Assembly: GCF_002160815.1 (NCBI RefSeq) | Contig: NZ_NFLH01000020.1 | Coordinates: 1 to 45,294 of the forward strand | DNA from: Massilimicrobiota sp. An134 | GTDB lineage: Bacteria > Bacillota_I > Bacilli_A > Erysipelotrichales > Coprobacillaceae | Direction: 5' to 3' | DNA: 45,294 bases | Made by a program: the position numbers and the translations under genes | The notes under the pieces: model-generated | What the model was told of the DNA's origin: nothing | Databases searched by the model: none | Seen by the model: only the letters and a program-made list of their open reading frames with translations | Shown here: one piece after another, positions 22,563 to 35,743 of the stretch | Layout: every line of letters begins with the position of its first letter | Position numbering within the stretch: position 1 is the first letter of the stretch

Positions 22563-24974
22563 CTATAAACTTTGTTCTGTTCTTCCAATAATATCATCTT
22601 GTGTTGCTTTTGATAACACATTAAAGAAAGCTGAATATCCTGCCACTCGCACAATTAAATCCTTATGCTTTTCTGGATGTTTTTGAGCATCAATTAAAGT
22701 TTCTTTAGACACAACATTATATTGGACATGATATCCTTCTAATCTATTAAAGAATGTCTTCATCAACATTTCCAGTTTCTGTTTATTTTCTTCTGTTGAT
22801 AACATCTGTGGTGTTACTTTCTGATTCAATAAAACACCACCCGTAATTTCATGAGTTGGTAATTTGGACACAGATTTAAAGACCGCTGTTGGACCACTTT
22901 TATCACAACTATGTGCTGGTGAACATCCTTCTGCCAATGGTGTATGAGCATGTCTACCATCTGGTGTTGCCATCGTTCCAAATCCCTGCCCTACATTAGC
23001 GGAAATAGAGGATGTTCCAGCATAACGAATACCTCCAATTGGCCCTCTGCCATAACGCGTATTTGGATACTTTTTCATTTCATCAATATAAGATGCATAG
23101 GCATCAACGACCAACTGATCCACTTCATCATTATCATTACCATATTTAGGCGCTTCTTCAATCAACATTCTTTGAATTCTTTGACTTTCTTCACTTTGAA
23201 AATCATCAACTAAAGCATCCCATAATTGTTGTTGAGTGATTTTCTTTTCATCAAAGACAAGTTTCTTAATTGCTGCCAGACTATCAGCCATATTCGCAAT
23301 ACCTACCTGCAATCCTGAAATGAAATCATAGACAGCTCCACCTTCTTTAATTGTCTTTCCACGACCAATACAATCTTCAGTAAGGGCTGAACATAAAACA
23401 TCAGGAACATCTTTTTCAGAAGCTAAATCAATTGCATTTTCAACAATCACACTCATACGTGTTAATTCTCTGACTACCTGATCCCATACTTGCATCAATT
23501 CTTCATAAGATTTCATTTCTGTAAAATAACCACATTCTTTTACAAAACGTTTTCCAGAAGTCATATCCACCCCATTATTCATCGCAATCAATAAAATTCT
23601 TGGGAAATTCATATAACTCATACCTGTACAACGATAACCCCATTTTCCTGGCACTGCTGTTTCCACGCAACCAATTGCAGAATAGTTATAAGCATCTTCT
23701 TCTTTGACACCTTTTTCAATAAATGAAGGAATAATCACTTCATCATTATTAAAGGCTGGCATACCAGTTCCTAATTTCATCACTTCAATAGCTTCATCAA
23801 AAAATTCCTGATTGATATGAGCATGGTATCTCACCGTTAAGTTTGGCTGAGGCAATCTTGTTTGTGCCACTGACTTCAAAACTAAGAAAGATAATTGATT
23901 CACGGCATCTTTTTGATCTGTTGTCTGTCCTCCAATTGTCACATTTTGATACATTGGGCTTCCAGCACTTGAAAATGTATGAGCCTGACTACGGACTTTA
24001 TTGATTGTGAGAGTCTTAATCCATAAATTTGTTAGTAATTCAACTGCTTCATCTTCTGTGATAATATTGTTATCTAAATCATGTTTTAAATAAGGATACA
24101 TATATTGATCAAAGCGACCATATGATAATGAATGTCCATTAGATTCAATCTGTAAAATCAATTGAATAAACCATACTGATTGAATCGCTTCATGAAATGT
24201 TTGAGCTGGCTGATAAGGCACTTTGTCACAAATACGACTGATTTCCAATAATTCTTCTTTTCTTTTTCCTGTTTCTTTTTCAGCTTTTTCTTTTGCTAGA
24301 ACACTAAAACGCTTTGCAAATGTTTTGACTGCTTCAATAACAATCAATACTGCATTATAAAATTGATATTTATTAAGATTTTCAGGAACACATAAATCCA
24401 AATGATTTTTGATATCTAAAACTCTGTCTTCATAACCCTTTAAACCGATTTCTAAGACTTTTTGATATTCAACAGCCAAATGAGCATCTCCTGAATTCAG
24501 TTTCCCTTCCATACCAAAAAATCCTGTTTCCATAAAAACACTGACTTCTTCAGGAAGTAAAGCTTCACCTTTAGCTCTTAGATTATTATTTTCCCAAAAT
24601 GGCGCAATAGAGCGTAAAGCTTCTTTTGTTTCTTCTGTAATATAAAAGACATCTCCATCACGTTTTTCAAACGTATCTAATTCATCCATAACAAACTTCA
24701 TTGTATACTCAGGAAAGATCGGTGCATCTTTATTTGATGAAGCCTGATTTCCTACAATTAAAGTTTCATCTTCAATATAAATAGACATTTTTTCCAATAT
24801 TTTTTTTAACATATAGGCACGTTTCATGACAGGTGTCTGATTCTTATATTTCTCATAAGCTTCTGTCACAAGCAATGCACGCTGAGCATCAATATAAGGT
24901 TTCTTATCCAATACAGCTTCTCTAAAATGATTCATACGTGGTGTTAAATCACCAAAATGTTCAACATTCTTCAT
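22563..24974 (-). CDS. glycyl radical enzyme, PFL-like (YbiW/PflD-type, C-O lyase candidate)
   Basis: This 803-residue anaerobic radical enzyme has the radical-bearing glycine in RVAGYSA (Gly779, 25 residues from the C-terminus) and the thiyl Cys436 in IGCVETAVPG. The single Cys followed by VE is the dehydratase/lyase pattern. True pyruvate formate-lyase has two adjacent Cys, so it is probably not PFL. Linkage to an FSA aldolase and a class with two extra ferredoxin clusters in its activase matches E. coli ybiW-ybiY-fsaA and pflD-pflC-fsaB. Those have been reported to open 1,5-anhydroglucitol- and 1,5-anhydromannitol-6-phosphate to 1-deoxyfructose-6-phosphate. The substrate here is inferred. 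The start at 24974 is fixed by AGGAG 7 bases upstream. Confidence 0.88.
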   Translation of the reverse strand: MKNVEHFGDLTPRMNHFREAVLDKKPYIDAQRALLVTEAYEKYKNQTPVMKRAYMLKKILEKMSIYIEDETLIVGNQASSNKDAPIFPEYTMKFVMDELDTFEKRDGDVFYITEETKEALRSIAPFWENNNLRAKGEALLPEEVSVFMETGFFGMEGKLNSGDAHLAVEYQKVLEIGLKGYEDRVLDIKNHLDLCVPENLNKYQFYNAVLIVIEAVKTFAKRFSVLAKEKAEKETGKRKEELLEISRICDKVPYQPAQTFHEAIQSVWFIQLILQIESNGHSLSYGRFDQYMYPYLKHDLDNNIITEDEAVELLTNLWIKTLTINKVRSQAHTFSSAGSPMYQNVTIGGQTTDQKDAVNQLSFLVLKSVAQTRLPQPNLTVRYHAHINQEFFDEAIEVMKLGTGMPAFNNDEVIIPSFIEKGVKEEDAYNYSAIGCVETAVPGKWGYRCTGMSYMNFPRILLIAMNNGVDMTSGKRFVKECGYFTEMKSYEELMQVWDQVVRELTRMSVIVENAIDLASEKDVPDVLCSALTEDCIGRGKTIKEGGAVYDFISGLQVGIANMADSLAAIKKLVFDEKKITQQQLWDALVDDFQSEESQRIQRMLIEEAPKYGNDNDEVDQLVVDAYASYIDEMKKYPNTRYGRGPIGGIRYAGTSSISANVGQGFGTMATPDGRHAHTPLAEGCSPAHSCDKSGPTAVFKSVSKLPTHEITGGVLLNQKVTPQMLSTEENKQKLEMLMKTFFNRLEGYHVQYNVVSKETLIDAQKHPEKHKDLIVRVAGYSAFFNVLSKATQDDIIGRTEQSL

Positions 24975-24991
24975 TTTTCTTCTCCTTTTTA

Positions 24992-25138
24992 TTTCATTTG
25001 AAAGTTTTATGTGTTTCATTTTCAAATATATCTTAACATATATCTAATTAAAGTCAATATTTATTTGAATAAAAACATATTATATTTCATTTGTAACTTA
25101 TTTATTTACTATTTAAAACATTTGTGATAACATATAAT
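24992..25138. promoter_or_regulatory. divergent promoter region with candidate DeoR-type sites
   Basis: Leftward, TTGACT (25057-25052) and TAAGAT (25035-25030), 16 bases apart, should drive the glycyl radical enzyme. Rightward, TATAAT at 25133-25138 lacks a good -35. Repeated motifs are TTTCATTTGAAAG (24992-25004, 5-bp dyad arms), TTTCATTTTCAAAT (25014-25027) and TTTCATTTG (25085-25093). The piece TTTGAAAGTT recurs upstream of the deoR-type gene (26858-26867), suggesting common control. Confidence 0.55.
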
Positions 25139-25154
25139 CAAAAGGAGAATGACT

Positions 25155-26051
25155 ATGACAAAAGGTATCATTTTTAATATTCAAAAATTTAGTATTCATG
25201 ATGGCCCTGGTATCCGTACAACAGTCTTTTTAAAAGGTTGTCCATTAAGATGTGAGTGGTGTTCTAATCCGGAATCACAAAATGAAAATATACAGATTCT
25301 ATGTCATCACGACACATGTTTACATTGTTGCCATTGTGTAAAAACTTGTCCTCAACAAGCAATCTCATTTCAGGATGGATATATCCATGTTCATTTTGAT
25401 CAATGTATTGGTTGTTTACAATGTGTTCAGCAATGTCCTTCACATTCTTTATCATGTGAAGGAGAGTATCAGGACATTGATGAAATTGTTCGTATCTGCA
25501 AACAGGATCTTCCTTTTTATGAAGAATCTCAAGGTGGCGTGACGATTTCTGGTGGTGAAGGTATGGGACAACCCCAATTCGTTGAAGCACTCATTCAGGC
25601 ATTAAAAAAAGAACATATCCATACTGCAATTGAAACGACAGGATATGTTCCAGAAGAAACATTTCAACATTTAGCCCCACAGTTTGACCTTTTATTATTC
25701 GATGTCAAGCACTACGACAGTCAACAACATTTCTTAAAAACTGGCGTTCATAATGAACTGATTATAAAAAACTTAACCTGGGCTTTTCAACAGGGTATAG
25801 ATATATTACCACGTATCCCTGTCATTCCTGATTTCAATTATTCTTTAGAAGATGCAAGAGGACTTGCTGGAATGTTACATAAGATTGGATTAAAACGTGT
25901 GCAACTCTTGCCTTTCCATCAATTTGGTGAAAAAAAATATGACATGTTGAATAAAGAATATACCTATAAAAATCAAAAAGCCCTCCATAATGAGGACTTA
26001 AAAGATTATCAGCAAATTTTTATTGATGAAGGTTTAGATTGTTTTATTTAG
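25155..26051 (+). CDS. glycyl radical enzyme activating enzyme (radical SAM, with two ferredoxin-like clusters)
   Basis: This 298-residue activase abstracts a hydrogen from the glycine of its partner using S-adenosylmethionine. The radical-SAM cluster motif CxxxCxxC is at Cys29-Cys33-Cys36 (CPLRCEWC). An insert of two [4Fe-4S] ferredoxin motifs follows (CLHCCHCVKTCP, CIGCLQCVQQCP), then the SAM-binding TISGGEG. The insert distinguishes YbiY/PflC- and dehydratase-type activases from PflA. AGGAG lies 7 bases before the ATG at 25155, which I prefer to the ATG two codons upstream. It is transcribed away from its partner, from the shared intergenic region. Confidence 0.92.
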   Translation: MTKGIIFNIQKFSIHDGPGIRTTVFLKGCPLRCEWCSNPESQNENIQILCHHDTCLHCCHCVKTCPQQAISFQDGYIHVHFDQCIGCLQCVQQCPSHSLSCEGEYQDIDEIVRICKQDLPFYEESQGGVTISGGEGMGQPQFVEALIQALKKEHIHTAIETTGYVPEETFQHLAPQFDLLLFDVKHYDSQQHFLKTGVHNELIIKNLTWAFQQGIDILPRIPVIPDFNYSLEDARGLAGMLHKIGLKRVQLLPFHQFGEKKYDMLNKEYTYKNQKALHNEDLKDYQQIFIDEGLDCFI

Positions 26052-26887: not shown

Positions 26888-26914
26888 AAAAAAAGTAATC
26901 CGAAGATTACTTTT
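26888..26914 (-). terminator. strong UUCG-loop terminator of the 42-codon unit
   Basis: On the minus strand, a perfect 10-bp stem AAAAGTAATC/GATTACTTTT closes on a TTCG tetraloop and is followed by TTTC. It starts 3 bases past the stop of the 42-codon frame. Confidence 0.88.
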
Positions 26915-26916
26915 TA

Positions 26917-27045
26917 TCATACACAAAATGTGTCTGTTAAAGGATAGAATATATCATAGTTACAAGTATGTCTAGATCTAATCTGGCTTTTTAATCTAAA
27001 ATGACGATGAATAGGAGTATGAGGGCAACTATTTCTATCATTCAT
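26917..27045 (-). CDS. candidate 42-residue His/Cys-containing small protein under metal-type operators
   Basis: The open frame has 42 codons starting at ATG 27045, with GAGG close upstream (only about 2-3 bases, a weak ribosome site), and ends at TGA just before a strong terminator. The product is basic, with five His and three Cys (NSCPHTPIHRHFR, SRHTCNYD, a C-terminal FCV) and no membrane helix or signal peptide. It sits alone in a transcription unit of about 255 bases driven by a promoter with two GTTAG-N6-CTAAC dyads. I do not recognise the family. The transcript could instead be a small regulatory RNA with a fortuitous frame. Confidence 0.5.
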   Translation of the reverse strand: MNDRNSCPHTPIHRHFRLKSQIRSRHTCNYDIFYPLTDTFCV

Positions 27046-27090
27046 ATCCTCTTTTATTCTTTATATATCTTTACACGCTTAGATATATCG

Positions 27091-27177
27091 GTTAGGATTT
27101 GCTAACTTTTAGATATTATTAATAGTTAGCTTTAACTAACTCTATAATCAGTATACTATATATAATAAATTTGTCAA
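27091..27177 (-). promoter_or_regulatory. promoter with two metal-regulator-type operators for the 42-codon unit
   Basis: On the minus strand TTGACA (27177-27172) and TATACT (27155-27150) are 16 bases apart. Nine bases past the -10 lies GTTAGTTAAAGCTAAC (27140-27125). A second dyad, GTTAGCAAATCCTAAC, is at 27106-27091, 34 bp further on. Spacing of both sites relative to the -10 and to each other matches the feo promoter exactly. A DtxR/MntR-type iron or manganese repressor is the likely ligand. Confidence 0.75.
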
Positions 27178-27827: not shown

Positions 27828-28022
27828 CTATAATTTCCTTTCTTTTTTCATTTTATCAGCAAAATATGTTTCTTTTAAATGACTCAAATCTCCACACCCA
27901 CTACATCCATCACATATTCCATGACAATCATTTTGTGCTCCATTTTTCTTTTGACGATGTCGCTGAAAAATGACAAATCCACAATATCCTATTATCAATA
28001 TAAGCACAATTATATCTGCCAT
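27828..28022 (-). CDS. FeoB-associated Cys-rich membrane protein
   Basis: This 64-residue protein has one membrane helix (about 3-20) and a cytosolic Cys cluster (Cys33, Cys37, Cys40, Cys43) in a CHGIC-x2-C-x2-C arrangement, typical of the small protein found downstream of FeoB in Firmicutes. The ATG at 28022 has AAAGGAG 9 bases upstream; a longer frame to 28061 lacks such a site. It probably assists ferrous iron passage or FeoB assembly. Confidence 0.85.
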   Translation of the reverse strand: MADIIVLILIIGYCGFVIFQRHRQKKNGAQNDCHGICDGCSGCGDLSHLKETYFADKMKKERKL

Positions 28023-28078
28023 TTTTTTCAACTCCTTTGATATGTCAAAACTGGACACCAAGGTATCCAGTTATTTGA

Positions 28079-30274: not shown

Positions 30275-30496
30275 CTATTTCACTTGGACACACTGCGCAT
30301 CCATTTTTCTTACAGATAATTCATATCCTCTGACTGTAATTTCTACAGGATCACCTAATGGTGCAACTTTTCTAATATATAGACTCGTTCCTTTAGTGAT
30401 TCCCATATCCATGATGCGTCGTTTATAAGCACTGTCCCCTTCTATTTTTGTAACAGTGACTGTACTTCCAACTTTCGCTTCACTTAAATTCATCAT
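30275..30496 (-). CDS. feoA: FeoA domain protein (second copy, next to feoB)
   Basis: This SH3-like small protein of about 73 residues is required for FeoB activity. It shows the FeoA pattern: leading NLSEAKVGSTVTVTKIEG, then RRIMDMGITKGTSLYIRKVAPLGDPVEI, and a last strand RGYELSVRK. There are three consecutive ATG codons; GGAGG is 4, 7 or 10 bases away. I chose the middle one (7). It is 15 bases upstream of feoB. Confidence 0.92.
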   Translation of the reverse strand: MMNLSEAKVGSTVTVTKIEGDSAYKRRIMDMGITKGTSLYIRKVAPLGDPVEITVRGYELSVRKMDAQCVQVK

Positions 30497-30528
30497 CATC
30501 TCTCCTCCCTTTTCAAACACCCTAAAAG

Positions 30529-30741
30529 CTATACCATGATATGACGTGCCATATCTTTGTTAATGGCAATTCTAGAATCTTTAATATTGACAATGACATT
30601 ACCTTCAATGGCAGATAAAACAGTAATTTCACTTCCAGCAACGAAACCAAGATTTTCCAAAAAACGCCTTGTTTCTTCATTGCCACCTATTCTGCGAATT
30701 GTATTCACTTCTCCAACACCAGCTAATGTTAATGGCATCAT
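30529..30741 (-). CDS. feoA: FeoA domain protein (first gene of the feo operon)
   Basis: This 70-residue FeoA-type protein (PLTLAGVGEVNTIRRIGG, RRFLENLGFVAGSEITVLSA, then NIKDSRIAINKDMARHI) differs clearly from the second copy. The ATG at 30741 has AAGGG 6 bases upstream; an ATG two codons before is too close. Paired FeoA proteins upstream of FeoB are known in Firmicutes and may form a heteromeric regulator of FeoB. Confidence 0.92.
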   Translation of the reverse strand: MMPLTLAGVGEVNTIRRIGGNEETRRFLENLGFVAGSEITVLSAIEGNVIVNIKDSRIAINKDMARHIMV

Positions 30742-30758
30742 AATCATCCCTTCTTTAT

Positions 30759-35662: not shown

Positions 35663-35692
35663 CTTATCCCTCCTGTATCAACGCTCACTGTC

Positions 35693-35708
35693 GTTAGCAT
35701 AAGCTAAC
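35693..35708. promoter_or_regulatory. metal-regulator-type operator upstream of the ABC pair
   Basis: GTTAGCATAAGCTAAC is a perfect-arm copy of the dyad found twice each at the feo and 42-codon promoters. It lies between the ribosome site and the tetR stop. I see no good -10/-35 adjacent, so it may act as a roadblock for transcripts coming from tetR or hide a weak promoter. A weak hairpin with a T-run (about 35719-35737, minus strand) precedes it. Confidence 0.7.
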
Positions 35709-35743
35709 TGTAGAGGTAAAAAATTGCAGGTTGCTGCATTCAT

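Follow-up and report, generated by a model that had tools for sequence, protein, structure and literature searches.

A conserved, probably iron-responsive small RNA in Massilimicrobiota and its relatives, with apparent descent from a gene for a FeoB-associated protein

Our analysis of a 45,294-nucleotide stretch of Massilimicrobiota sp. An134 (contig NZ_NFLH01000020.1, hereafter the window) points to a transcription unit that encodes a conserved small RNA with an anti-Shine-Dalgarno seed and that, to judge from its operators, is metal-repressed, a reading that we regard as reasonably probable. The RNA appears to descend from a gene for a FeoB-associated protein, an origin that is well supported by both sequence and place. 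The origins of bacterial small RNAs are mostly untraceable, as these molecules evolve too fast; here a coding relative survives at the same locus in sister genera, such that the passage from protein gene to RNA would be traceable base by base. If the reading is correct, it would also supply an iron-responsive small RNA for a gut-bacterial family in which our search of the open literature, limited in extent and incomplete in coverage, found none reported.

The promoter, two operators, 42-codon frame and UUCG terminator that a sequence-only reading had assembled into one self-contained unit are all present where it had placed them (Table 1). The promoter gave 11 of 12 matches in a promoter scan and is alignable in relatives, and the UUCG terminator was missed by the terminator scan, which demands three G-C pairs. 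At the level of sequence the unit has its own promoter and terminator, and these are kept in relatives. Operator 1 was found at nine of the ten loci that carry the RNA, including loci without conservation of the leader, and the copy in G042 has no recognisable operator. The predicted transcript has a better fold than any of 200 shuffles (z -3.3).

Table 1. Positions in the window of the small RNA unit, its parts and the neighbouring genes
Feature	Position	Strand	Remarks
Promoter TTGACA-16-TATACT	27177-27150	minus	-35 TTGACA 27177-27172, 16-nt spacer, -10 TATACT 27155-27150
Transcription start	~27142	minus	predicted
Operator 1 AGTTAGTTAAAGCTAACT	27141-27124	minus	at +1; could also fold as 5' hairpin in the RNA
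Operator 2 AGTTAGCAAATCCTAACC	27107-27090	minus	34 nt downstream of operator 1
Small RNA transcript	27142-26888	minus	~255 nt predicted; 185-263 nt in relatives
Covarying stem, 5' arm AUAGUUGC	27032-27025	minus	structure-guided alignment
Covarying stem, 3' arm GUAACUAU	26963-26956	minus	structure-guided alignment
Seed CCUCAUACUCCUAUUCAUCGUC	27024-27003	minus	conserved, predicted unpaired; anti-Shine-Dalgarno CUCCU
Second conserved block AAGCCAGAUUAGAUCUAGACAUAC	26989-26966	minus	putative relic of codons around KSRHTC
Intrinsic terminator, UUCG loop	26914-26888	minus	stem AAAAGTAATC-UUCG-GATTACTTTT and T run
42-codon frame	27045-26917	minus	not conserved; judged no gene
Promoter of downstream DeoR gene, TTGCGT-17-TAATCT	26872-26844	minus	read from sequence; aligned in relatives
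DeoR gene	26830-26069	minus	downstream of small RNA
FeoB-associated Cys-rich protein gene, intact	27828-28031	minus	PF12669, E 7e-10; paralogue of the putative ancestor gene of the RNA core

The RNA was found in ten genomes of four genera. A DNA search located the unit in the congeners G002, G003 and G004, with partial matches in G009, G010 and G011; G034 and G035 came from a pattern search; and G042 came from a covariance model of the core, which was applied to 315 genomes of the order and returned nothing convincing outside this bacterial family. When an 18-mer of the core was scanned in approximately 85,000 species genomes, the matches comprised this group and one in Sporosarcina, which at just 21 bits was taken as chance. 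Matches of the RNA model below about 31 bits (G029, G039-G041, G044, G046, G047 and the f2 genomes) were likewise set aside as apparent chance matches within genes, judged from their sequence. No RNA was found in the congener G001, whose assembly is 87% complete, and Rfam 15 gave no family at or above its gathering threshold.

Common to the ten genomes is the core CCUCAUACUCCUAUU(CAUCGUC), which is nearly invariant and predicted to be unpaired; CCTCATACTCCTATT is almost invariant across them, the exceptions being one substitution and one deletion in G010. The 25-nt core of the window shares 92-100% identity with seven of the eight relatives compared (80% with G003, which has a deletion), whereas outside the core identity falls to 16-80% in the leader and 40-78% in the tails. 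The loop in which the core is placed is closed by an 8-bp stem with 98.6% pairing and compensatory changes at four of its eight pairs. The covariation score of this stem, obtained on an alignment fitted to the model and hence biased toward the structure, is 0.517 versus 0.308 +/- 0.045 in shuffles; it was reached by none of 500 shuffles, and slid controls gave at most 0.22. RNAalifold on the raw MAFFT alignment, in which the right arm was misaligned, returned no structure, and the structure-guided alignment resolved this arm. The stem was also recovered in free single-sequence folds of all eight species folded. In each of the nine full transcripts folded, the mean unpaired probability of the seed is 0.72-0.89 versus about 0.4 for the whole RNA, and the seed is thus both conserved and single-stranded in the predicted folds.

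The operators suggest a connection of the unit with iron. The feoA promoter carries the same operator pair with the same 34-nt spacing (30809-30792 and 30775-30758), so that the double operator marks the RNA promoter as a putative member of the iron regulon. With up to two mismatches allowed, the operator motif has six matches in the window versus 1.5 expected, a number reached by none of 100 shuffles. Exact GTTAG-N6-CTAAC sites also precede a siderophore-type transporter, NrdI, AhpC, enolase and ABC transporters, names that were read from translations without a profile test; genome-wide there are 11 such sites versus 8 for the reversed control, a slight excess which implies that some of them are chance. 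The genome contains both operators of the TTAG-N6-CTAA type and a single detected DtxR-family protein (122 aa). From this one repressor and from the operators shared with feo, the siderophore-type transporter and NrdI, we infer that the small RNA is repressed by iron via a DtxR-family repressor. Two further features of the region are two FeoA-like genes in tandem before feoB (30275-30747) and an operator-like site CGTTAGCATAAGCTAACT (35692-35709, plus-strand reading) just before a minus-strand ABC transporter gene.

The coding relatives of the RNA suggest its probable history. The RNA model R1 also picks out two intact genes that immediately follow feoB, one in G021 (E 5.9e-8) and one in G038 (E 7.7e-5); their products, MLQFIQNNLSTIIVSLILLFIIYKIIKFQLKSRHRCHGGCEGCSMGCQDHKKDHR and MNNLSTIIVAVILLIIVIMIIKHQIQTRHTCSSGCGGCPMAGKCHTHKK respectively, are both FeoB_associated (PF12669) by profile match. 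The G021 gene aligns along nearly the whole RNA core, with local DNA scores of 63-66 versus a maximum of 26-28 in 1000 shuffles, and the window encodes IVALILLFIVI and SQIRSRHTC in two different frames. Exactly the position that the RNA has in the window, behind feoB, assoc1, a frame of 52 aa and the gene for an HMA protein, is taken in G044 and G050 by a PF12669 gene, in the order feoB-assoc1-52aa-HMA. Homologous DNA and the same place in the feo locus are what the RNA shares with the gene for the FeoB-associated Cys-rich protein, from which it differs in having lost the frame and in being conserved at the RNA level. On such a descent, the His and Cys residues that the sequence-only reading had noted in the 42-codon frame are explained as relics of the Cys-rich protein code. 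The FeoB tree contains two feoB types and the RNA adjoins both, which indicates a history that included operon exchange rather than a simple single loss. The two FeoB types (L245, L247, L242-L244, L246) are approximately 50% identical and have exchanged operon tails, and in G044 and G050 the FeoB of one type is followed by the FeoB-associated gene of the other.

That a protein gene was converted to a trans-acting regulatory RNA, its transmembrane-helix codons becoming the seed, perhaps via a transcript that both coded and paired with mRNAs, has in our estimation an even chance of being correct. In G021, which still encodes the protein, 15-nt stretches of each block are unchanged. As a separate observation, ATACTCCTATTCATC and AAATCTAGACATA in this intact gene (L063:795-959) are identical to those of RNA-bearing relatives, and by eye the gene can form seven of the eight stem pairs, as a possible dual-function transcript might. 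SgrS/SgrT of enteric bacteria is a dual-function regulatory RNA with a coding part in its history. The SgrS seed is not known to descend from protein code, whereas the seed here would itself be former coding sequence. No account of a bacterial small RNA derived from a protein gene came up in our limited and incompletely covering search of the open literature, and translation of FeoB-associated frames is undetermined according to PMC8749426.

With a protein gene as the apparent ancestor of the RNA core, one alternative is a translated small protein, either the 42-codon frame, which was one of the two options of the sequence-only reading, or the 16-codon hydrophobic frame MIEIVALILLFIVILD with its better-spaced ribosome site. 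Both frames have in the window a start codon preceded by AGAGG, and in G004 a 45-codon frame stays open through both blocks, but neither candidate frame is kept across the ten genomes, the stops and indels that break them differ by genome, and only G002 among the relatives retains the 42-codon frame, which refutes this option as it was proposed. Four loci (G034, G011, G009 and G042) have no start codon for either frame, and in G010 a 1-nt deletion within CTCA-ACTCC disrupts the hydrophobic frame while the flanking nucleotides are retained. Set against the open frame, transmembrane helix and Cys-rich motif of PF12669, the RNA-bearing loci have broken frames and have lost the CGGC-type Cys motif, and the 42-aa product matched no Pfam family; we leave a translated product very little probability. 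The lost frame and clear homology would equally suit a decaying, functionless pseudogene of the FeoB-associated protein, but the core and stem are conserved far above their flanks in four genera, with compensatory changes, the unit has its own promoter, operators and terminator, and it persists apart from the feo operon in G003 and G011, which makes simple decay barely credible. A broken frame combined with unconserved RNA structure had been named in advance as the outcome that would count against the unit; the frame is indeed broken, but the RNA core and stem are conserved. A transcription attenuator or riboswitch-like leader of the downstream DeoR-family gene would account for the presence of that gene in nine of ten genomes and for a terminator just before it. 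This too is very unlikely, as the DeoR gene has its own conserved promoter past the terminator, such that the small RNA is not needed as its leader; a similar DeoR promoter occurs in G038, whose locus has the coding gene instead of the RNA; and no alternative antiterminator pairing was seen. In G042 the core is present with no DeoR gene within 1.5 kb after the RNA, in G011 the gene preceding the RNA is another gene and not feo, and in G003 about 15.5 kb separate the RNA (C37:43318) from the FeoB-associated gene that belongs to the feo operon (C37:27663); from these positions the small RNA is an independent unit.

We return, then, to a unit that is real and conserved as a small RNA and that probably responds to iron. 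In the mechanism that we favor, a metal repressor, presumably of the DtxR family and under iron shortage, would leave both operators and allow the RNA to be made; the loop of the conserved stem would present the unpaired C/U-rich seed, which could pair with the ribosome-binding sites on mRNAs of iron-using proteins that the cell can dispense with; and this pairing would block translation and spare iron, as with FsrA and IsrR. The open, CUCCU-bearing seed suggests Shine-Dalgarno pairing, and anti-Shine-Dalgarno pairing would be the likely mode of action. The existence and regulation of the iron-sparing RNA proposed in the sequence-only reading are supported, and its targets are only suggested. 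Duplex energies over 1378-1467 G004 ribosome sites and 202 orthologue pairs showed no enrichment over shuffled seeds, and in genome-scale scoring iron-sulfur genes paired no better than other genes. The ribosome site of rubrerythrin, an iron protein, carries TGAATAGGAG in the RNA-bearing congeners G000, G002, G003 and G004, where its pairing with the seed spans 10-14 bp, and the site is thereby kept within the genus; G010 has AATAGGAG (8 bp), and apart from 8 nt matched in G048 the site is absent from the rubrerythrin leaders listed for other genera. We consider rubrerythrin the best candidate for an iron-sparing target. A second candidate, the mnmG ribosome site AGGAGTGTGAGG (L238, G000:C19:14833; L233), is complementary to the seed over 12-13 bp in the genomes G000 and G004, with 13 bp for the window genome, and is the same in G003; this match is strong and conserved in congeners, but mnmG was set aside as an iron-sparing target as it is not an iron gene and the site also occurs in G001. 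G001, where no RNA was found, carries the same rubrerythrin and mnmG sites, and GAATAGGAGG is also common as a ribosome site (groEL, rpoC, metS). A DUF362-like [4Fe-4S] protein, whose site pairs perfectly over 12 bp in G004, was rejected as not conserved, with no close homologue found in G000 and a changed site in G003. Long complements of the full seed (up to three mismatches) gave no target conserved between genomes except a T-box-like leader, considered unrelated when judged by eye; a leader with GATGAAAAGGAGTAGTAG (L040, L042, L048) is identical in three congeners and resembles a T-box leader. The lack of enrichment, together with the conservation of the second block, leaves some room for a conserved RNA that acts otherwise, by protein binding, as an RNA sponge or on the feo mRNA. 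We consider this unlikely, as an anti-Shine-Dalgarno seed usually takes the form of a long, unpaired, nearly invariant stretch with CUCCU and as the rubrerythrin and mnmG sites match the seed in congeners.

Iron-responsive small RNAs are known from other bacteria. MrsI of Mycobacterium is one under the DtxR-family repressor IdeR; the putative DtxR-family control of the RNA here would be alike, and the locus is unrelated. IsrR of Staphylococcus is iron-repressed, Fur-controlled and has tested targets, and resembles the RNA described here in its low-GC Gram-positive host, two repressor boxes at the start site, own terminator and single-stranded C-rich regions that meet Shine-Dalgarno sequences (PMC9410917). 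It differs in being under Fur, whereas the operators here are of the DtxR type and the core would derive from a protein gene, and no relation of sequence or synteny was seen between the two. FsrA of Bacillus subtilis shares the C-rich motif directed at Shine-Dalgarno sites and the iron-sparing idea (PMC9410917); it differs in its Fur control and FbpABC helpers (PMC9410917), and the small RNA here matches no Rfam family. As to the immediate surroundings of the RNA, a glycyl-radical enzyme (820 aa) and its activating enzyme (22563-26051) adjoin it, with the DeoR-family regulator, in several relatives.
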